The notes beneath the pieces were generated by a model, which did not search any database, had not been told where the DNA came from, and was given only the letters and a program-made list of their open reading frames with translations. Positions 3,999 through 20,642 of a DNA stretch of 20,681 nt are shown one piece after another. The position numbers and the translations under genes are program-made. The DNA comes from a virus: positions 1 through 20,681 of the IMG/VR virus record IMGVR_UViG_3300037063_000115; one strand, written 5' to 3'. The first letter of the stretch is position 1. The number at the start of each line of letters is the position of its first letter.

Positions 3999-4973
3999 AT
4001 GGCTACAACAACCCCCAACTTTTCATTGATTGAACCTGCGGTTTTGAGCAGTACTGACGCCAATCTTTGGGGCGGCATGCTTAATACTAATAGCACGAAT
4101 TTAGACGCTTTTTTAACTAGCCTTACAGCAAATTTTGCTGGGACTTCGACTCCGGTTCTTGGCACTACTGCTTCCCCTACATCAGGTCAATGGTGGGTTA
4201 ACACCACTGGTTCTACTTGGCCACTAAATATTTATGACGGCACAAGTTGGGTTCTAGTAGGGACTATAAATCCTACCACTCATACTTTTGCCCCTGTAAC
4301 TTCATTATCATTGGTTTTAAATCCAGTTACTTTTAAAACTGCGGGAACATTTACATATACTCCTTCTGCTAACTTAGTCTATCTAACTGTTGAAGTTCAA
4401 GGTGGTGGTGGCGGCGGTGCAGCAACAATAACTGGAACACCTATAAATTACTGGAGTCAAGGGGGAGCAGGAGGAGGCTATGGCAAATCACTTTTGGCTG
4501 CTGCCTCTGTCCTCGGTGGAGTGACAGTCACAGTAGGAGCTGGGGGCGCAGGCGGAACTAGTTCACCGATAGCAGGAGCCAATGGAGGTAATAGTTCATT
4601 TGGTGCTCTTATCACGGCTACAGGTGGAGCTGGGGGAGTATCAATGGTTGCGGGCACTGTTTTTGCTGCGCCTGCTCCCGGTAGTTCGACAGGTGGAAAT
4701 CTCCTTAATCTTAATGGGGGATTCGGGGCAGCTGGTTACGGAGGTACAGGCCCTACTTATATAAGTGGCAGTGGTGGCAGTGGCATTTATGGCAATGGAG
4801 GAGCCCCATGGGTTGCTTGTATACCTAGTTCATCTACAGTTGTGAATGGTAATAATGGTCAGGCTGGAACCGGCGGCGGCGGTGGTGGTGGTATTTCATC
4901 TAACGGGTCAGCCGTTGCGAATGGTGGTAACGGAGCTAGTGGCTGTATAATAATAACTGAATTTATTAGCTAA
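3999..4973 (+). CDS. tail fibre-like protein with polyglycine C-terminal domain
   Basis: The 324-aa protein has two parts. The N-terminus (residues 1-90) carries FSLIEPAVLSSTDANLWGGM, then a QWWVNTTGSTWPLNIYDGTSWVL block (QWW, IYDG and W key residues); both patterns recur in phage tail-fibre and collar proteins. From about residue 105 a TFTYTPSANLVYLTVEVQ strand leads into a long glycine-rich domain with runs such as GGGGGG and GAGG repeats, ending in ASGCIIITEFIS. This end matches glycine-rich phage adhesin domains, which present polyglycine sandwiches for receptor binding. AAGGAG lies 6 nt before the start. It probably binds host surface structures. It is separate from the nine-gene family further downstream, so the virion may carry two kinds of surface-binding protein. 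Confidence 0.72.
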   Translation: MATTTPNFSLIEPAVLSSTDANLWGGMLNTNSTNLDAFLTSLTANFAGTSTPVLGTTASPTSGQWWVNTTGSTWPLNIYDGTSWVLVGTINPTTHTFAPVTSLSLVLNPVTFKTAGTFTYTPSANLVYLTVEVQGGGGGGAATITGTPINYWSQGGAGGGYGKSLLAAASVLGGVTVTVGAGGAGGTSSPIAGANGGNSSFGALITATGGAGGVSMVAGTVFAAPAPGSSTGGNLLNLNGGFGAAGYGGTGPTYISGSGGSGIYGNGGAPWVACIPSSSTVVNGNNGQAGTGGGGGGGISSNGSAVANGGNGASGCIIITEFIS

Positions 4974-7696: not shown

Positions 7697-7978
7697 ATGA
7701 GTAAAAGTTTAAATCAGATACCGATTACTGGAACATCAGTATTAGAGGAAAGAGTCAAGAGATTAGAGCAGCAATTTTCTAATAGCTCCAATTTTTTAAA
7801 TTCTTATACGTTGGGTACACTGAGAACGGATAGGACAACTGCACCCGCCAACAGCACTGATATTACTGTGGGAGTGGATAAATTATATGATGTTATAAGA
7901 GTATACCCCTATGAATATGTATTAATTCCAGTTGCTGGGGTAGCAAATTGGGTTAGAATAAGTATGAGCACATTTTGA
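7697..7978 (+). CDS. small hypothetical tail-region protein
   Basis: The 93-aa protein has a short helical segment (VLEERVKRLEQQF, residues 15-27, heptad-like) that could form a trimeric coiled coil. A beta-type C-terminal half follows with LYDVIRVYPYEYVLIPVAG and an ending WVRISMSTF. GAGG lies 5 nt before the ATG, inside the end of the nozzle gene. Its stop overlaps the TTG start of the acetyltransferase gene. A small trimeric tail accessory protein is plausible from the coiled coil and the position. No family is recognised. Confidence 0.65.
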   Translation: MSKSLNQIPITGTSVLEERVKRLEQQFSNSSNFLNSYTLGTLRTDRTTAPANSTDITVGVDKLYDVIRVYPYEYVLIPVAGVANWVRISMSTF

Positions 7979-8433
7979 ACGAAAAAGTAAATATAAGAAA
8001 AGCGACAGCATTTGATCATAGCGCGATTTTGAATTTGAGTGTACAATGGTTTGAAGAGGTGCGAGTTCAGGGCTTTCCAGGAGTTTGTGCACAAACGGGG
8101 GTCTGGCTGGCAGATTTAATAGCCAATCACTTATTTTTGGTTGGAGAATATGGAGATAAGATAATAGGAGCGCTCGGCCTTAGAATTGGCAATGTGCCGT
8201 GGAATGTAACTGAACCAGTTTTATTTAATGAGCTTTTTATGACAGACAAGGACTATAGAGGGACTGGTATTTCAGACAAACTGATTGATGCGGTTAAAGA
8301 GTTTTCCGAAGACAATAATTTGTTATTGATTATGGGGCATATGACTGGCACCGATGCGCATTTGAAAGATAAATATTTGAGTATTAAAGGCTTCAGTTAT
8401 GCTGGAGCAAATTTCATATTTGGGAGAAAATAA
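7975..8433 (+). CDS. GNAT-family N-acetyltransferase
   Basis: Predicted to transfer an acetyl group from acetyl-CoA to an unknown amine substrate. The 152-aa protein has the GNAT plan: a beta-strand start (NIRKAT), helices 1-2 (HSAILNLSVQWFEEV), strands with FLVGEYGDKIIGALGLRI, then LNELFMTDKDYRGTGISDKL-type motif A. The acetyl-CoA pyrophosphate loop is R95-G-T-G-I-S100, in a Q/R-x-x-G-x-G/A-like position with Ser last. A C-terminal KDKYLSIKGFSYAG gives the usual motif B region. The start is a TTG overlapping the previous TGA (TTGA), chosen because the GNAT fold begins right there and no ATG lies nearby. GNAT proteins are known inside phage structural clusters. It may modify a virion or host protein, but the target is unknown. 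Confidence 0.85.
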   Translation: MNEKVNIRKATAFDHSAILNLSVQWFEEVRVQGFPGVCAQTGVWLADLIANHLFLVGEYGDKIIGALGLRIGNVPWNVTEPVLFNELFMTDKDYRGTGISDKLIDAVKEFSEDNNLLLIMGHMTGTDAHLKDKYLSIKGFSYAGANFIFGRK

Positions 8434-12653: not shown

Positions 12654-13037
12654 ATGGGAATGAAATCTACCGGTCTAGTTATTGCAGAAGCCGCGCCAGC
12701 TTTAGCATTAACTGCGGCAAACACGATCGTTGTTAATCAATATACTACATTTACAGCTACAAATAACTACTGGGTGCCAAGAGAAGCAACACTTGCGGAA
12801 TTATCTGCATTTGTATCTGGTGGGGCTACTGTTCTTGCAGTTGGCACCATTACTCTAGCAGCAGGAGCCGCAACTGTGCCTTTAGCTACTATCACTGCAG
12901 GAAGTGTGGTTCTTTTATCTGAAGCAAATGCAACACCAAATGCATTAGGTTACGTAATCACCCCAGGTACTGGTTTTGTTATACACTCTGCAAGTGGCGC
13001 TGACACTTCATCAGTGAGTTATGTAGTATACAGTTAA
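12654..13037 (+). CDS. small beta-rich virion protein, unknown
   Basis: The 127-aa protein is rich in Ala, Thr, Val and Gly and reads as alternating beta strands (ATVLAVGTITLAAGAATVPL, about 59-78, and SVSYVVYS at the end), with no TM helix or long coiled coil. It has a strong AAGGAG site 6 nt before the ATG. It is the first gene after an AT-rich gap, so it probably opens a new transcription unit that includes the fibre-like family. A small capsid- or fibre-associated protein is likely from company and composition. It does not contain the C-terminal module shared by the later genes. Confidence 0.65.
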   Translation: MGMKSTGLVIAEAAPALALTAANTIVVNQYTTFTATNNYWVPREATLAELSAFVSGGATVLAVGTITLAAGAATVPLATITAGSVVLLSEANATPNALGYVITPGTGFVIHSASGADTSSVSYVVYS

Positions 13038-13050
13038 GGTAGAGGCTAAT

Positions 13051-13386
13051 ATGACCAACCAAGTCCCATCCACTACTGAAATTATTTTTTTTCAGGCTCA
13101 GACAACTAATGGGTCTTCTACAGGTATGTCTTTCATTTTTCCAATGAAAAGGGCTTGTTTAAAATATTGGGGCACATGGGATGGAGCAACAGTTACATTT
13201 CAAACTGCTACTCCTCTAGATAGTAGTTATTGGATTCCTATCGACACTCTCAATGGTACTATCGCTTCCTTTACCTCGGATGGTCAATCGACTCTAGAAC
13301 TTGTAGTTTATGGAGATCTTTTGAGATGCACAATTTCAGGGGGTGGTGGATCGATGTCATTAAACGTAACAGCTCAAGCAGTATAG
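13051..13386 (+). CDS. small beta-sandwich-like virion protein, unknown
   Basis: The 111-aa protein shows alternating strands with conserved-looking aromatics (FIFPMKRACLKYWGTWDGAT, about 28-47, and SYWIPIDTLNG), ending in a Gly-rich turn (SGGGGSMSLNVTAQAV). The layout (a strand, KYWGTWDGATVTFQ, then strands ending in a LNVTAQ edge) resembles small jelly-roll proteins of phage particles, but no family is named with confidence. AGAGG lies 5 nt before the start. It lies between the preceding beta-rich protein and the first member of the shared-module family, so a role at the particle surface is a reasonable inference. Confidence 0.62.
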   Translation: MTNQVPSTTEIIFFQAQTTNGSSTGMSFIFPMKRACLKYWGTWDGATVTFQTATPLDSSYWIPIDTLNGTIASFTSDGQSTLELVVYGDLLRCTISGGGGSMSLNVTAQAV

Positions 13387-13393
13387 GAACATT

Positions 13394-13894
13394 ATGGCAT
13401 ATATAAATATTATTACTGCAAGCGGGGGAAGCGTGGGATATATAACTATAGAGCACAACGGGTCAGCACTTCCTCAAGAAGCAATTCTGAATTTTGTTGG
13501 TGCGAATTTTACTGTTACTGATAATCCAGGCAATGGTAGTACAGATGTAAGCGTTTCCAGTAGTGGGGGAGCGACATGGGTTGAAGCCCCTGCATCTACT
13601 GGAATGGCTATTAATACCTATTATAATGCTAACAGTGGTAGTCTTGTTACACTTACTCTCCCATCGACAGCGGCGTTTGGTACCTCTTTCGCCGTTTCGG
13701 CTTTTGGAGCAGGTGGATTTACCATCGCACAAAATGCTGGACAGACGATTCATTTTGGTGATTTAAGCACTACTTCGGGGACAGGTGGTTCCATAAGTTC
13801 AGCACGCCAGTACGACACATTATTCTTTTTCTGCTCGGCTGCTAATACAGATTTTACTGTTACAAGTTCTATAGGCAATTTAACCATAGTGTAG
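13394..13894 (+). CDS. fibre-family member 1 (short, distinct N-terminus)
   Basis: The 166-aa protein joins a unique N-terminus (residues 1-60) to the C-terminal module shared by the next eight genes. The N-terminus contains EAILNFVGANFTVTDNPGNG, a phrase of a kind recurrent in phage tail and fibre proteins. The module runs from W62 to the end: TLTLPSTAAFG, GFTIAQNAGQTIHFGDLSTT, SGTGGSIS, then C147 in FFCSAANTDF and a terminal SSIGNLTIV. Its W-to-C distance is 85 residues, as in the next gene. An AGGAA site lies 4 nt upstream. It is probably a fibre-tip or surface-binding component, and its shorter form suggests one of the base forms of the family or a different attachment point. Confidence 0.68.
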   Translation: MAYINIITASGGSVGYITIEHNGSALPQEAILNFVGANFTVTDNPGNGSTDVSVSSSGGATWVEAPASTGMAINTYYNANSGSLVTLTLPSTAAFGTSFAVSAFGAGGFTIAQNAGQTIHFGDLSTTSGTGGSISSARQYDTLFFFCSAANTDFTVTSSIGNLTIV

Positions 13895-13900
13895 CGAGTC

Positions 13901-15634
13901 ATGACAACAACAAATACCCTAAATCTTCAGATTTTCGTGGGGGATAGTGGAAGCGGAGGCACCAGCGGTCTAGTTCCGGCGCCTCCAGCAAATAGCAATC
14001 TTGCCGGAGATTTTCTCAGTGCAGGAGGGTCATTTACTTACGTTGACCAATCCAAGAATATCAATCCGAATTTTTCTTTAGTTACTCAGGGCCCCGTTCC
14101 TTCTGGTTCTCCTGGTACAATCAAATATGAAAGTACGACCATCTTCACGTCTATCGTAACAGGCAAGACATATGCCATCGGGGTAGGATTCCTAGGGTCT
14201 CCCACTTTGACTATCTGGGATATAAGCGACCAGACTCGTCCTACAATCACTGGAACATTCGTGGCTGCTGGTGGAGGAGCCTACAATTGCACAGTTGGAG
14301 TTGTTAGTGGCGTACAATACGCCTTTGTGGGATATAATGCTGGCGCGCATTTCGTGGTCGTCAATTTGACAAATCTGGCCGCTCCTACGCAGACCAGTAC
14401 GACTGTCATCACCGGAAGTCCTGGCTCGATCTACAACGTATCATTTCTCAATGGATATGTATATTGCGCTACTCAAAGTGCAGGTTTGGTTGTTATGGAC
14501 GTAGGGGGTGGCACAGGATCTCCAACAGTTCCCGTTCAGACCTTCACCCAGGGTTCGCCTGTCAAATCCTTTGGAGTGGTCGCCATAGGCACGAATGTCT
14601 ATACAACCTATTACTCTACTTCTAGTCCTTTCACCACTAGACAAATTATATCTTGGACGCTAAGCGGAGCAGGAACTCCTGCAGTTCCTTCTCAGCTACA
14701 GAGCTTGCAAGTTACGGCAGCTGGAGAAGCACTGGGCTTGAGTATTTCAGGAAATACTGCATTTGTCACCACAGCTACTTCAGGTGCCTATAACATCAAT
14801 CTAGTTGACATTACATCTCCTTCTGCCATGACTAATTTGAGTCAGGTTAATAGCTCGAATGCGTTTGGTTCGGCATTTTACGCAGTTGGAAGCGGCAACA
14901 TCATGTACGTTCCTTCAAGCGGCAATGCCACCTATGGGGGGGCGATAGATGCTTATGATATAACGATTCGTACTTCTCCGATTCATATCTCTCAAGTTAC
15001 CACCGGAAACCCTAATTCAGGATTTGGAGGCATAGCCCTATCAGGTGGATATATTTTCTGTGCAGACTATGGAGTTCCAGCCAGTAACAATGGGTACTTT
15101 GATGTATTTACTCAACTGAACGCCACTGCTATTATCGGTGAAATGCTATCTTCTACTGCTTACTTGCAGTCATTAACTCCAAGTACAGCTTTAGTCGCTT
15201 CTTCTTCGAATGAGATCATATCATCTGTTACTACTACTACAGAATTATCATATGTACATGGAGTAACGAGCTCTATTCAAACACAAATTAATGCTTTATC
15301 TGCTAGCTCTTTTGTATGGAATGTTCAAACTACTTCTTTAGCTCTAGTAGCTAATCAAGGATATCTTGCCAATAGTGCTTCGGCTTTAACTTTTACATTG
15401 CCGACCACAGCCACAGTGGGGCAATTATTTGCTGCATCAGAGATAGGAACAGGCTCGTTTTCGATTGCTCAGAATGCTGGACAGCATATACAGTTTGGTA
15501 GTATTCAAACTACTTCTGGCACAGGTGGCTCGTTGACATCTACTAATACTGGTGATACTATTAATTTGGTTTGTTCTGTAGCTAATACTACCTTCCAGGT
15601 GGTGTCTTCTATAGGCAATTTAACGTATATTTAA
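13901..15634 (+). CDS. fibre-family member 2: beta-propeller fused to shared C-terminal module
   Basis: The 577-aa protein has four parts. There is a short N-terminus (1-65). A beta-propeller of LVIVD-like repeats follows (about 70-415), with blades such as LTIWDISDQTRPTITGTF, FVVVNLTNLAAPTQTST, GLVVMDVGG and NINLVDITSPSAMTNLSQV. A linker with STALVASSSNEIISS and TELSYVHGVTSSIQTQINAL (about 430-466) is a phrase typical of phage tail fibres and probably a trimeric coiled-coil neck. The shared module is at about 471-577 with W473, QNAGQHIQFG, C558 in VCSVANTTF and a terminal SSIGNLTYI. The propeller part uses more C-ending codons than the linker and module. It has a weak ribosome site (GCGAG). 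It is best read as a receptor-binding fibre protein; whether the propeller or the module contacts the host is unknown. Confidence 0.72.
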   Translation: MTTTNTLNLQIFVGDSGSGGTSGLVPAPPANSNLAGDFLSAGGSFTYVDQSKNINPNFSLVTQGPVPSGSPGTIKYESTTIFTSIVTGKTYAIGVGFLGSPTLTIWDISDQTRPTITGTFVAAGGGAYNCTVGVVSGVQYAFVGYNAGAHFVVVNLTNLAAPTQTSTTVITGSPGSIYNVSFLNGYVYCATQSAGLVVMDVGGGTGSPTVPVQTFTQGSPVKSFGVVAIGTNVYTTYYSTSSPFTTRQIISWTLSGAGTPAVPSQLQSLQVTAAGEALGLSISGNTAFVTTATSGAYNINLVDITSPSAMTNLSQVNSSNAFGSAFYAVGSGNIMYVPSSGNATYGGAIDAYDITIRTSPIHISQVTTGNPNSGFGGIALSGGYIFCADYGVPASNNGYFDVFTQLNATAIIGEMLSSTAYLQSLTPSTALVASSSNEIISSVTTTTELSYVHGVTSSIQTQINALSASSFVWNVQTTSLALVANQGYLANSASALTFTLPTTATVGQLFAASEIGTGSFSIAQNAGQHIQFGSIQTTSGTGGSLTSTNTGDTINLVCSVANTTFQVVSSIGNLTYI

Positions 15635-15643
15635 GGAGTAAAA

Positions 15644-16243
15644 ATGGCAACTCAAAATTCCATTAATGCTAATGCCTCCACCCCTCTAATAACCACCGAT
15701 GGCGGAACAGGATTATCCAATCCGACAGCTCATGGTATTTTAGTTGGCGAAGGTGCTAGTGCAGTAAACCCTATTGTATTAACAAATGGGCAATTATTAG
15801 TCGGTTCGACTGGAGCTGATCCTGTAGCTGCGTCTATCACTGCAGGTACGGGGATTAGTGTAACTCCTGGTGCTGGTACTATTACTATTGCTTCAACTGG
15901 TGGAGGTGGATTTACATGGAATAATGTTACTGTAAATGCTCCTGTAACAATGGTAGCGGCGCATGGTTATATACAAAATAGTGCAGGAACTAATCTAGAT
16001 TTCATTTTACCTTCCACTTCGGCAGTAGGAGATGTAGTGGCAGTGGCGGATGGTGGTCTTGGATTCCAGATTACGCAGGCAGCGGGTCAATATATAGAAT
16101 TTGGCAATGTTACTACTACGGTTGGCACTGGCGGTTCCATAACTTCTATTAGTGGGCAAAATTGCGCTATACAATTGCTTTGTATTCAGGCCAATATAGC
16201 ATGGGTCGTTATAAGTTCAGTCAGTAATTTCACAGTAGTATAA
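15644..16243 (+). CDS. fibre-family paralogue A (first full-length array member)
   Basis: The 199-aa protein has the two-module plan of the array. The N-module (1-88) carries NSINANASTPL, DGGTGLSNPTAHGILVGEG, NGQLLVGSTGADPVAASITAG and a GTITIAST strand. A Gly hinge leads to W92, then the C-module with FILPSTSAVGDVV, QAAGQYIEFGNVTT, TVGTGGSI, C180 in LLCIQANIAW and an ending SSVSNFTVV. The GGTG...GQLLIG...LTAG pattern recurs in phage tail-fibre shafts. It has the strongest ribosome site of the array, AAGGAG overlapping the upstream stop. Likely a trimeric fibre segment or tip; the receptor is unknown. Confidence 0.72.
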   Translation: MATQNSINANASTPLITTDGGTGLSNPTAHGILVGEGASAVNPIVLTNGQLLVGSTGADPVAASITAGTGISVTPGAGTITIASTGGGGFTWNNVTVNAPVTMVAAHGYIQNSAGTNLDFILPSTSAVGDVVAVADGGLGFQITQAAGQYIEFGNVTTTVGTGGSITSISGQNCAIQLLCIQANIAWVVISSVSNFTVV

Positions 16244-16256
16244 GGAGCAATTAATA

Positions 16257-16847
16257 ATGACAATTCAAAATTCAATAAATGCTAATTCAGTTACACCTTT
16301 ATCAGTACTCGATGGTGGTACAGGACTTAGTAACCCGACTAATCACGGCATTCTAATTTCAGAAGGTACAAGTGCGTTTAATCCAATAGTTTTATCCGCT
16401 GGCCAAGTATTGATCGGTACGACGGGAGCAGATCCTACTGCTGCTACATTGACAGCAGGAACTGGTATAAATATTACAAGTGGTTCGGGTTCTATCACTA
16501 TTGCTAGTGTTGCTACTGACACTTGGACGAATGTAACTACTACTACACAAACTATGGTTGCTGGCGGAGCTTATACCGCAAGTAATGCTGGTTTAGTGAC
16601 TCTTACACTACCTACAACAGCAGCTTATGGTACAATTATGGAAGTTGCTACAGGAACTACTTCAGGAGGATGGAAAATTGCACAAAATGCATCGCAATCT
16701 ATTCAATTCGGCTCAGTTGCAACTACAACAGGCACAGGAGGTTCTTTACAATTTACGGCACTGGGAGATTCTGTTAAACTTCTTTGTACAGTAGCAAATA
16801 CAACTTTCCAAGTTCTTAGTGCTGTTGGGAATATAACTTACGTATAA
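16257..16847 (+). CDS. fibre-family paralogue B
   Basis: The 196-aa protein has the N-module DGGTGLSNPTNHGILISEG, AGQVLIGTTGADPTAATLTAG and a GSITIAS strand. W90 opens the C-module, which has LTLPTTAAYGTIMEV, GGWKIAQNASQSIQFG, TTGTGGSLQ, C177 in LLCTVANTTF and an ending SAVGNITYV. AAGGAG lies 9 nt upstream. A 36-bp stretch in the C-module coding region is 35/36 identical to the next gene although flanking sequence differs more, and the NAGLVTLTLPTTAAYGT block is closest to the second gene downstream. These patterns suggest segmental exchange among the copies. Confidence 0.72.
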   Translation: MTIQNSINANSVTPLSVLDGGTGLSNPTNHGILISEGTSAFNPIVLSAGQVLIGTTGADPTAATLTAGTGINITSGSGSITIASVATDTWTNVTTTTQTMVAGGAYTASNAGLVTLTLPTTAAYGTIMEVATGTTSGGWKIAQNASQSIQFGSVATTTGTGGSLQFTALGDSVKLLCTVANTTFQVLSAVGNITYV

Positions 16848-16858
16848 GAAAATATACC

Positions 16859-17452
16859 ATGGCCACTAATAATACTCTTAATATTAGGCCTACCACTGCT
16901 CCTCTTCCTGTCTTAAGAGGCGGAACAGGCGCAGCTACTCTAACGGCTCATGGTGTTATACAAGGAGCTGGTTCTGGTTTTCTTACATCAACAGCTATGG
17001 GTGCTGGTACATTATTAGTGGGAACTACTAATACACCAGCAGCTGTTGCATTGACAGCTAGTGGAACCGCCGGTAATACTGTATCTGTTACTTCTGCATC
17101 TGGTTCAATAACTATCAATAATGCTTTATATTGGTTAGATGTAACTGCTACTACACACACTATGCTTGCCTATGGTGCTTATACAGCTAGCAATGCTGGA
17201 GTAGTAACATTTACTTTACCTACTTCAGTTTATGGAATTACAATAGAAGTAACTACAGGAACTACCTCAGGAGGATGGAAAATTGCACAATTGTCAGGTC
17301 AATCGATACGTCATGGTAATGTAATCACTACTACTGGAACGGGAGGGTCGTTATCTTCTACCGCTCAAGGTAACTCAGTTAAGCTTGTCTGCCTTCAAAG
17401 TGGAGCAGGATGGCAAGTGATAAGTTCAATGGGCAATTTAACAAAAGTATAA
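16859..17452 (+). CDS. fibre-family paralogue C (divergent N-module)
   Basis: The 197-aa protein has the most divergent N-module among the seven full-length paralogues: LRGGTGAATLTAHGVIQGAG, then GAGTLLVGTTNTPAAVALTA, lacking the GQxLIGTTxxDP form of the others. The C-module is standard from W92: FTLPTSVYGITIEV, GGWKIAQLSGQSIRHG, TTGTGGSLSS, C178 in LVCLQSGAGW and an ending SSMGNLTKV. The usual CxxANT becomes CLQSGAGW. It has no good ribosome site (AAGAAAATATACC precedes the ATG), so expression may depend on coupling or be low. The contrast between an unusual N-module and a C-module sharing DNA with the previous gene points to mosaic origin. Confidence 0.7.
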   Translation: MATNNTLNIRPTTAPLPVLRGGTGAATLTAHGVIQGAGSGFLTSTAMGAGTLLVGTTNTPAAVALTASGTAGNTVSVTSASGSITINNALYWLDVTATTHTMLAYGAYTASNAGVVTFTLPTSVYGITIEVTTGTTSGGWKIAQLSGQSIRHGNVITTTGTGGSLSSTAQGNSVKLVCLQSGAGWQVISSMGNLTKV

Positions 17453-17463
17453 ATGGGTAAATA

Positions 17464-18060
17464 ATGACAACAAATAATTCAATAGATGCTAATTCGACTA
17501 CTCCACTTTCAACTACTAATGGCGGCACTGGTGTTTCTGCTCCAACAGCCCATGGGGTATTGATTGGAGAAGGCGCCTCAGCGATTCATCCTATCGTTTT
17601 AACTGCGGGTCAGGTTTTAATAGGGACAACGGCTAGTGATCCAGTGGGGGCTACATTAACCGCTGGAACTAACGTTACAATTACTAGTGTAAGTGGTTCA
17701 ATTACAATTAATGCAAGTGGAGGGACTAGTTTTACCTGGAATGATGTCACAGGAACTACTCAAACAGCTGCTGTAAATAATGGTTATACCGCAAGTAATG
17801 CTGGCGTAGTAACTATTACATTACCAACCACTGCCGCTTATGGTACAACCATTGAGGTAGGTACAGGTAGCACTGCAGGCGGCTGGGTAGTTGCTCAGAA
17901 TGCGTCTCAAAATATTATATTGGGCAATACTACTTCGACAACAGGAACTGGTGGATCATTAGCTAGCACTTTACAAGGCGATATGGTAGAATTATTATGT
18001 ATAGTTGCAGATACAACTTGGCAGGTACGAAATTGCGTTGGAAATTTAACAGTAACATAA
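17464..18060 (+). CDS. fibre-family paralogue D
   Basis: The 198-aa protein has the N-module NGGTGVSAPTAHGVLIGEG, AGQVLIGTTASDPVGATLTAG and a GSITINAS strand. W92 opens the C-module with ITLPTTAAYGTTIEV, GGWVVAQNASQNIILG, TTGTGGSLAS, C179 in LLCIVADTTW and an ending VGNLTVT. Upstream only GGGT is visible, and the ATG at 17453 between the two genes opens a 3-codon frame that ends in TAA overlapping the real start. That arrangement could support reinitiation. It is the last member with the TGTGGSL form of the C-module. Confidence 0.71.
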   Translation: MTTNNSIDANSTTPLSTTNGGTGVSAPTAHGVLIGEGASAIHPIVLTAGQVLIGTTASDPVGATLTAGTNVTITSVSGSITINASGGTSFTWNDVTGTTQTAAVNNGYTASNAGVVTITLPTTAAYGTTIEVGTGSTAGGWVVAQNASQNIILGNTTSTTGTGGSLASTLQGDMVELLCIVADTTWQVRNCVGNLTVT

Positions 18061-18069
18061 TGGGTATAA

Positions 18070-18684
18070 ATGTCTGTATTAAATAATTCCCTAAATGCTA
18101 ATAGTTCTACGCCGTTATCTACGGTAGAAGGCGGTTCGGGAGTATCCAATCCTACCGCTCATGGTATTGCGATTGGTGAGGGCTCAGGTGCCATTAATTC
18201 TATTGTTCTAGGGGCTGGGCAACTCCTGATAGGTAATACGTCAGGGGATCCCTCGCCTACCACTTTAACCGCTGGATCCAATATTACTATAACACCCACT
18301 TCTGGCGCTATTACAATAGCTTCTTCAGGTGGTGGGTCCAGTTTCACTTGGACGTCTGTTGTAACATCAACCGTCAATATGACAAATAATACTGGATATG
18401 TAATAAATTATACTGGTGGAAATTCTGTAACGTTTACTTTACCGACCACATCTAATGTTGGTGATACTATTAGCGTAGATTGTAATGAACTCGTTAATTC
18501 ATCGATGAATTGGACTATATTACAAAATTCTGGACAGGTATTTAATAATGGGCCGCAAAATTCTACAGTAACTACCGGAACTTTGTATAGTGGACAAGCA
18601 TGTTCAGATGTCACTTTCGTTTGTATAGTTGCTGATACAGTATATTCTGTAATATACGGTACTGGCACTATTTTGAAAACTTAA
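18070..18684 (+). CDS. fibre-family paralogue E (second C-module subtype)
   Basis: The 204-aa protein has the N-module EGGSGVSNPTAHGIAIGEG, AGQLLIGNTSGDPSPTTLTAG and a GAITIASS strand. W94 opens a divergent C-module: FTLPTTSNVGDTISV, NWTILQNSGQVFNNG, then TVTTGTLYSG in place of TGTGGSL, C185 in FVCIVADTVY and an ending YGTGTILKT. An additional cysteine is present in GQACSD. The W-to-C distance is 91, the longest in the family. Only GGGT precedes the start. The changed segment lies in the region between the GQ motif and the conserved Cys, where loop variation would be expected if that face contacts a ligand. Confidence 0.7.
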   Translation: MSVLNNSLNANSSTPLSTVEGGSGVSNPTAHGIAIGEGSGAINSIVLGAGQLLIGNTSGDPSPTTLTAGSNITITPTSGAITIASSGGGSSFTWTSVVTSTVNMTNNTGYVINYTGGNSVTFTLPTTSNVGDTISVDCNELVNSSMNWTILQNSGQVFNNGPQNSTVTTGTLYSGQACSDVTFVCIVADTVYSVIYGTGTILKT

Positions 18685-18696
18685 TAGGGAAATTTA

Positions 18697-19305
18697 ATGT
18701 CTGAATTGAATAATACTATCAATGCAAACAATACTACTCCATTGCCTGTCAATGCAGGTGGATTTGGCGTTAGCAGCCCTACAGCTAATGCTGTTTTGAT
18801 TTCTGAAGGATCAAGTGCATTTAGTTCTATAGCATTGAGCACAGGCCAAGTTTTAATTGGCACTACTTCAGGAGATCCCTTAGCAGCTACTTTAACTGCT
18901 GGTACAAATATTTCTATAACTAATGGCTCTGGTTCTATTACTATAGCTTCCACCGGTGGCGGCGGAAGTCTTACATGGAATTCTGTAACTGGTTCAACTC
19001 AAACTTTAGTTGCTAATAATGCATATGTTCAAAATTCGAGTAGTAATTTAGTTACTTATACGTTGCCCACAACAGCAAATATTGGAGATACTATAATCGT
19101 TACAGCTAATTATTTTAATAATAATTCTGGAGCATGGCAAATTAATGTTAATTCGGGGCAACATATTACTTACGTTGCTACTCAAACTACTAGTAGTGGA
19201 TATTTAGCTGGTTCAACAGGGGCGACAGTAACATTAGTTTGTGTTGTTGCTAATACAACATTTACGGTTATTAGTTTTTATGGGACGAGCGTTACAACTC
19301 ATTAA
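18697..19305 (+). CDS. fibre-family paralogue F (second C-module subtype)
   Basis: The 202-aa protein has the N-module AGGFGVSSPTANAVLISEG, where GGFG replaces GGTG and TANA replaces TAHG, followed by TGQVLIGTTSGDPLAATLTAG and a GSITIAST strand. W94 opens the C-module with YTLPTTANIGDTIIV, AWQINVNSGQHITYV, TTSSGYLAGS, C182 in LVCVVANTTF and an ending FYGTSVTTH. The GYL form groups it with the next gene. A short AGGGAAA lies 8 nt before the start. The role is as for the other paralogues, and the receptor is unknown. Confidence 0.7.
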   Translation: MSELNNTINANNTTPLPVNAGGFGVSSPTANAVLISEGSSAFSSIALSTGQVLIGTTSGDPLAATLTAGTNISITNGSGSITIASTGGGGSLTWNSVTGSTQTLVANNAYVQNSSSNLVTYTLPTTANIGDTIIVTANYFNNNSGAWQINVNSGQHITYVATQTTSSGYLAGSTGATVTLVCVVANTTFTVISFYGTSVTTH

Positions 19306-19322
19306 TATAAAAGAAAGATTAT

Positions 19323-19937
19323 ATGTCAATATTAAACAATTCGATTAATGCTAATAGTAACACGCCGTTGTCTCCTACAGAGGGTGGTACGGGACTGAAC
19401 TCATCTAGTGCTACCGCTCATGGTATACTAATCACCGAAGGTTCTAGTGCATTTAATCCCATTGTTCTAACTGCTGGAGAAATTCTAATTGGTACTACTT
19501 CAGGAGACCCTATAGCAACAACTTTAACTGCTGGTACTAATGTAACTATTACAAGCATATCGGGAGCAATCACTATTAATGCTAGTGGGGGTGGTGGATC
19601 AACTTTTACTTGGAATACGGTTTCATCTTCGCCCATAACAATGGTATCTAATAATGGTTATGTGAATTTATCTTCTATTTATTTCTTCTTGCCGACCACA
19701 GCTAGTGTAGGAGATATTTTTATTATTACATCTAATGCTAATGCAACTACTATTTCTAATGGAAGGATAGAGACTAATTCTGGTCAATTTATTACATTTA
19801 ATACTCAAACTACCTCGATAGGAGGTTATTTACAACTTTCCACCTCGACAACTTGTAGTGGTGTGACCCTTGTGTGCTTAGCTACTAATACTCTATTTGG
19901 GGTGGTTAATTTTATTGGGGCCATATCAATACATTAA
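19323..19937 (+). CDS. fibre-family paralogue G (last array member)
   Basis: The 204-aa protein has the N-module EGGTGLNSSSATAHGILITEG, with a short insertion before TAHG, then AGEILIGTTSGDPIATTLTAG and a GAITINAS strand. W97 opens the C-module: FFLPTTASVGDIFII, GRIETNSGQFITFN, TTSIGGYLQ, C185 in LVCLATNTLF and an ending FIGAISIH. An extra cysteine appears in TTCSG. The ribosome site is poor (AAAGAAAG). It has the longest intergenic gap before it in the array (17 nt), and an 85-base gap with a probable promoter follows, so this gene closes the array. Confidence 0.7.
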   Translation: MSILNNSINANSNTPLSPTEGGTGLNSSSATAHGILITEGSSAFNPIVLTAGEILIGTTSGDPIATTLTAGTNVTITSISGAITINASGGGGSTFTWNTVSSSPITMVSNNGYVNLSSIYFFLPTTASVGDIFIITSNANATTISNGRIETNSGQFITFNTQTTSIGGYLQLSTSTTCSGVTLVCLATNTLFGVVNFIGAISIH

Positions 19938-20289: not shown

Positions 20290-20448
20290 ATGCCCCTGAA
20301 GAAAGGAACCAGCAAGAAAACTTTGTCTGAGAATATCCGTACTGAACGTAAAGCTGGTAAACCAGAAAAACAGGCTGTTGCTATTGCTTTTAATGTTAAA
20401 CGCGAAGCAGAACTTGCTAAAGAGCGTCGTAAGGATAAAAAGAAATGA
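20290..20448 (+). CDS. small basic protein of a recurrent phage type
   Basis: The 52-aa, very basic protein has a start [19 protein letters not shown], then [12 protein letters not shown] and a Lys/Arg-rich tail. This arrangement (SENIRTE followed by GK-x-KQAVAIA) is one I recognise as recurrent in small phage proteins of unknown function. GAGG lies near the start, and its TGA overlaps the next ATG (ATGA), giving translational coupling. A role in DNA or RNA binding is suggested only by charge. Confidence 0.72.
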
Positions 20449-20642
20449 GTGAAAAATGGATGGCTGAAGCTTTTGGTAAAAACAAAGGCAAACTTCATCG
20501 TGAATTGGGTGTTAAAGAAGGGGAGAAGATTCCTGCTAAGAAATTAGCGAAAGCCGAGCATTCTAAAAACACAACTATCAGAAAAGAAGCTGTTTTGGCT
20601 CACACTGCTGGAAAAATTAATAGACGTCCTGGCAAAAGATAG
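20445..20642 (+). CDS. small basic protein with LHRELGV...GEKIP motif
   Basis: The 65-aa protein shows the pattern [20 protein letters not shown] (about residues 14-33) followed by [18 protein letters not shown]. This matches, by eye, a small protein type common in phage genomes and often next to the preceding SENIRTE-type gene. It is strongly basic, has no TM segment, and begins in an ATGA overlap with its neighbour. Function is unknown. The pair is usually seen among virion or packaging genes, which agrees with this location. The 39 bases after it hold no further recognisable gene. Confidence 0.75.

Follow-up and report, generated by a model that had tools for sequence, protein, structure and literature searches.

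The stretch of DNA analyzed here (hereafter the window) is a 20,681 bp virus record, in which nine open reading frames lie in tandem on the plus strand at positions 13394–19937, with gaps of 6–17 nt between them. A second assembly of the same phage (IMGVR 3300038463_000304, 35,676 bp) has ends that overlap by 194 bp, which places the genome at about 35.5 kb, and it carries the same nine genes, which rules out an artefact of assembly. The array (genes a1–a9) makes up 18% of the genome, and eight of its nine products are short. A P22-type portal, a terminase large subunit and a Phage_capsid_3 head protein are encoded in the same genome, from which a podovirus-type genome was inferred. Other genes recorded were a GNAT acetyltransferase among the virion genes (7975–8433; Pfam E 3.8e-7) and, elsewhere in the genome, an ankyrin-repeat protein (L050 6680–7066; Pfam E 1.8e-10) and a DNA methylase on the minus strand (L050 824–2023; N6_N4_Mtase, E 1.1e-23); the relative L059 apparently encodes ankyrin-like proteins too, as judged by eye. 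Promoter and terminator scans gave signal at the level of shuffled sequence. The C-module of a4 (see below) had no relative in 84,980 species genomes at the sensitivity of the scan, and a search with the 904-aa tail protein gave no more than four contigs, all distant and from metagenome bins; no host is claimed.

The first array gene, a1 (13394–13894, plus strand), is the putative base gene and consists of a conserved 56-residue N-terminal anchor segment (aa 1–56, 13394–13561) and a C-terminal module, the C-module (13574–13891). It lacks the short N-terminal tag of the other eight genes, and is the first array gene in those relatives whose array start is covered. Gene a2 (13901–15634) combines the tag MTTTNTLN (13901–13924; found only once the tag pattern was widened to allow T), a beta-propeller (about aa 49–410, 14045–15130) and a C-module (15311–15631). 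The remaining seven genes, all on the same strand, are each built from a tag, an N-terminal module (N-module) and a C-module: a3 (MATQNSIN, 15644–16243, C-module 15911–16240), a4 (MTIQNSIN, 16257–16847, tag and N-module aa 1–89 at 16257–16523, C-module aa 88–196 at 16518–16844), a5 (MATNNTLN, diverged N-module, 16859–17452, C-module 17126–17449), a6 (MTTNNSID, 17464–18060, C-module 17731–18057), a7 (MSVLNNSLN, 18070–18684, diverged C-module 18343–18681), a8 (MSELNNTIN, 18697–19305, diverged C-module 18970–19302) and a9 (MSILNNSIN, 19323–19937, most diverged C-module 19605–19934). Two small plus-strand genes (127 and 111 aa, 12654–13386), possibly attachment or head genes, are kept directly upstream of the array in relatives and had no match among named phages. 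A separate fibre gene with a glycine-rich C-terminus lies outside the array (3999–4973, plus strand; Pfam Gly_rich_2 E 1.2e-13, phrog_863 E 1.7e-40).

The C-module is one homologous domain of about 107 residues. A profile was built from 87 C-modules of other phage groups, with sequences from the window and its near relatives excluded, and it matched a1–a9 with E values of 4e-15 to 2e-39; 0 of 1,800 shuffled copies and 0 other open reading frames of the window were matched. The independent search therefore bears out the original prediction of nine adjacent same-strand genes with a common C-terminal module, and its Trp-to-Cys distance of 85–91 residues agreed exactly with the spacings measured in a1–a9 (85, 85, 88, 87, 86, 87, 91, 88 and 88). 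A Trp, a Tyr, a Leu-Pro, a Gly, a Gln, the Cys and a Val were invariant in 9/9. The remainder of the predicted motif list largely stood, but a7 lacks both the GTGGSL and the GYL form, and a3 and a5 deviate from the C..AnT.f context; the N-module was found in seven of the nine genes (a3–a9), as had been claimed. The same prediction had overlooked that a2 is a propeller bearing this C-module, that the a1 N-terminus is conserved and different from the others, and that a2 starts with the same short tag as a3–a9. Among named phages, Microcoleus phage My-WqHQDG was the sole relative for the C-module. Deep forks of the C-module tree were unresolved; a4–a6 clustered with single copies of relatives, a7–a9 with each other (SH-aLRT 85), and a1 with the first array gene of a relative. 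Site variability of the C-module was higher in strands than in loops, a pattern from which no function is claimed.

For structure prediction, which had been named earlier as one check on a fibre function, a4 was modeled as a single chain using 103 related sequences (mean pLDDT 89). In this model the C-module (residues 87–196) forms a nine-stranded mixed beta-sandwich of XD1 type, and it aligned with phage baseplate and spike proteins over 90–100 residues at Z 9.4–12.2 and 2.2–2.8 Å. Matches included a KP1 baseplate chain (Z 12.2), residues 61–185 of CBA120 TSP4 (Z 11.5, 100 aligned, 2.4 Å), residues 66–167 of T4 gp9 (Z 10.1), T4 gp10 (Z 9.4), and the C-terminal parts of the Pa223 capsid spike (Z 10.3) and an Acinetobacter tailspike (Z 9.6). 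In TSP4 the XD1 domain comprises residues 80–178 (PMC8825819). Fold matches to CpaA and StcE were weaker; CpaA- and StcE-like domains bind glycans (PMC8825819). The C-module of the array is thus predicted, from the a4 model, to be an XD1-type beta-sandwich; the fold matching covered a4, and the model of a2 also has high confidence at its C-module. No XD2 or XD3 jelly-roll domain was present among the a4 fold matches listed, and the N- and C-modules together fill a3–a9.

The N-module gave a weak match to Pgp3_N (below the Pfam cut-off), a weak fold likeness to the N-terminal domain of Pgp3, and a weak match to phrog_31660 in 22 of the 103 relatives (best E 1.3e-7), with a4 itself not passing 0.001. 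In other phages it is joined to S74 (endosialidase) chaperone, glycine-rich (Gly_rich_2) and C1q heads, and longer proteins contain one to several copies of it, as a rule ahead of one C-module at the C-terminus. Because of these heads and the predicted fold, a fibre or spike role for the nine products is well supported. The original prediction had drawn its fibre or adhesin identity from motif likeness and the neighbouring virion genes; the fold, the N-module heads, and the propeller and glycine-rich partners now support that identity independently of such likeness.

The body of a2 is an LVIVD beta-propeller, with a Pfam match above the cut-off (E 3.8e-8) and, in a model of moderate confidence, Z of about 26 over 280–297 residues to WD40-type and YncE propellers. 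Phages with diverged or unrelated core genes carry this body at 68–84% identity, and a residue-by-residue comparison of a2 with one relative showed identity falling from about 80% to about 45% at the C-module border. The phages at L228, L229, L230 and L231, whose virion genes are different, have no C-module and carry a propeller body 68–80% identical to that of a2, which has apparently been horizontally exchanged.

Genes a2–a9 start with the tag M-[AST]-x-[NQTL]-N-[ST]-[IL]-[ND], with one extra residue in a7–a9. Across 180 loci, 86 tagged genes were counted (0.7 expected from internal Met sites), and in loci having array genes only 1 of the 86 was remote from them. The tag was found in 75/159 genes directly after a C-module gene vs. 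14/1,464 others, and in 58/97 loci with a C-module vs. 2/52 with the N-module only; by the pattern used, which was widened after inspection, 39 of the 97 C-module loci had no tag. With loci grouped at 60% core identity, tagged groups numbered 25/50 for the C-module and 0/13 for the N-module only (P = 0.0008), but grouping at 40% gave a non-significant association (P = 0.12), the loci being related. A clustering of loci in which the fibre genes took part merged almost all of them and was discarded. All of these tag counts lean upward, because the pattern was refined during inspection and the queries that fetched the loci included tag letters. Tag and C-module are genetically linked, and the first array gene is untagged in the window, in its relatives and in nearly all listed arrays; an anchor-like N-terminus of the a1 type opens that gene in most relatives, where the anchor is sometimes fused to a body, e.g. 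a propeller. As unrelated bodies share the tag, a docking peptide is suggested, and as tagged genes sit behind C-module genes, the C-module is suggested as its socket; docking of the tag in the C-terminal sandwich is read from gene order and is put forward conditionally. In some phages the tagged proteins outnumber the C-modules, so the pairing is not simply one to one.

Array length was compared across related phages, as had been proposed earlier, and expansion through two, five and nine genes was seen. Relatives at about 50% identity have two C-module genes, after which comes a tagged protein of 446 aa. In the nearest relatives, whose 904-aa tail protein is 72% identical, there are five, together with an N-module protein of 611 aa that ends in a glycine-rich segment; the window and the second assembly of the same phage have nine, the longest such set seen. 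Other phages have one to five; the set was chosen by similarity, and these counts are not frequencies. Within a3–a9, mean identity was 58% for N-modules and 40% for C-modules, the N-modules being more similar in 19/21 pairs, and the two identities were uncorrelated across pairs (r = −0.18). At 79% identity, the N-module of a6 resembles the one in the glycine-rich 611-aa protein of the relative, a protein whose C-terminus is different. The N-module tree was almost unresolved. Module exchange between paralogues and between phages is evident. More recent variation was seen between the two assemblies, which differ at 11 sites within the array and at 1 site in the 13.4 kb upstream (P = 4e-5, assuming independent sites, although the sites are clustered). 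Gene conversion among paralogues as the origin of these variants was not supported, because the codons beside the variant sites differ from those of the donor copies. Separately, 11 inter-assembly differences fall within 132 bp at 20424–20555, mostly silent in a 65-aa open reading frame (20445–20642), and may represent a recombination tract or a contig-end effect.

The reading preferred here, to which we give roughly even chances, is that the nine genes form a plug-and-socket kit of short, probably trimeric subunits that would build a mixed, segmented or branched virion fibre. In such a fibre a1 would be the base and would hold the whole to the particle through an N-terminal anchor of its own; the XD1-type sandwich at each C-terminus would act as a socket, and the tag of a2–a9 as a plug seated in the socket of another subunit, so that subunits having both could extend or branch the fibre. 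The propeller would be contributed by a2, and diverged, possibly receptor-facing sandwiches by a7–a9. Copies would have arisen by duplication, with N-modules, bodies and C-modules exchanged as well, and the phage would thereby present several binding surfaces simultaneously. Weighing against the socket role is TSP4, whose XD1 domain has been interpreted as a spacer and not a docking site (PMC8825819). Extended to a general assembly code, in which an N-terminal peptide of 8–9 residues seats in the XD1 sandwich of a neighbor and many lineages add, drop or swap segments, the proposal is tentative and falls short of even chances.

Instead of plugging into one another, a2–a9 might dock independently on a common acceptor (a1 or a tail protein) as parallel tips of mixed specificity, each sandwich being a glycan-binding tip. 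The glycan-binding domains of CpaA and StcE share the predicted fold of the C-module, and RaK2 gp531 has a CpaA-like C-terminal domain proposed to bind polysaccharide (PMC10253068); the greater divergence of C-modules relative to N-modules and the loci in which two or three tagged proteins accompany a single C-module also fit independent docking. What it leaves unexplained is how often the gene before a tagged gene ends in a C-module, and why very different heads follow C-module genes, and we consider it rather unlikely. Placement on the head, as capsid spikes or head fibres, is less likely again: the C-module does match the C-terminal part of the Pa223 capsid spike, the two small genes stay directly upstream of the array in relatives, and the recognized tail-fibre gene sits elsewhere, but baseplate and tailspike chains make up most of the fold matches and relatives of the N-module bear tail-spike heads, which does not decide the location.

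The original prediction had offered three uses for so many copies, of which a mixed or heteromeric fibre fits best and a silent reservoir poorly. A reservoir, with one or two copies in use and the others as spare cassettes swapped in by recombination, would draw on the module exchange seen between paralogues and phages and on the excess of recent array variants over the upstream part. Yet all nine genes are intact, each with its own start, the paralogues have drifted far apart, and the pattern of variable sites does not resemble paralogue conversion. The 35.5 kb genome showed no invertase and no reverse transcriptase, the latter on reading the translations of its open reading frames of at least 90 aa, which speaks against a diversity-generating retroelement, and invertible cassettes were rejected likewise, with no machinery seen and a single short imperfect inverted repeat in the region (21-nt, 86%). 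For these reasons the reservoir is disfavored and judged very improbable.

If tag and sandwich are plug and socket, the fibre composition of many uncultured phages could be deduced from their sequences, and a few small purified proteins would allow a direct test of how receptor-binding parts are gained or exchanged; if the general code holds, many phage lineages could swap fibre segments like building blocks. Known phages that carry many fibre proteins are for the most part large myoviruses whose spikes are big and enzymatic. The N-terminal tag, on a2–a9 and in many phages, is new here, and in the mostly open literature searched no description was found of nine tandem short paralogues, each with one N-module and one XD1 module, in a small genome. 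The closest named counterparts of the N-module are the PHROG tail fibre protein phrog_31660, whose weak match covers part of the protein and mainly this module, and the N-terminal domain of chlamydial Pgp3, for which the likeness in sequence and fold is weak and no functional link is claimed. The C-module shares its predicted XD1 fold with T4 gp9 and gp10, but gp9 continues into another C-terminal domain, to which the long tail fibre binds, whereas in the array the sandwich is the C-terminus. CBA120 TSP4 likewise has a beta-rich N-terminal region followed by an XD1 sandwich, and in the branched tailspike complexes of Ackermannviridae and G7C several spike proteins are joined via dedicated modules (PMC8825819); docking in CBA120 and G7C uses XD2/XD3 and their spikes have a large enzymatic body, whereas the array parts are mostly 200 residues. 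Multi-fibre clusters are already known from RaK2, phiKp24 and CBA120. RaK2, with nine to ten fibre proteins, and phiKp24, with fourteen predicted, resemble the array in having many fibre genes that are mostly clustered, but these are jumbo myoviruses with large depolymerases, and the paralogues of the array are short and belong to a podovirus-type genome of 35 kb.
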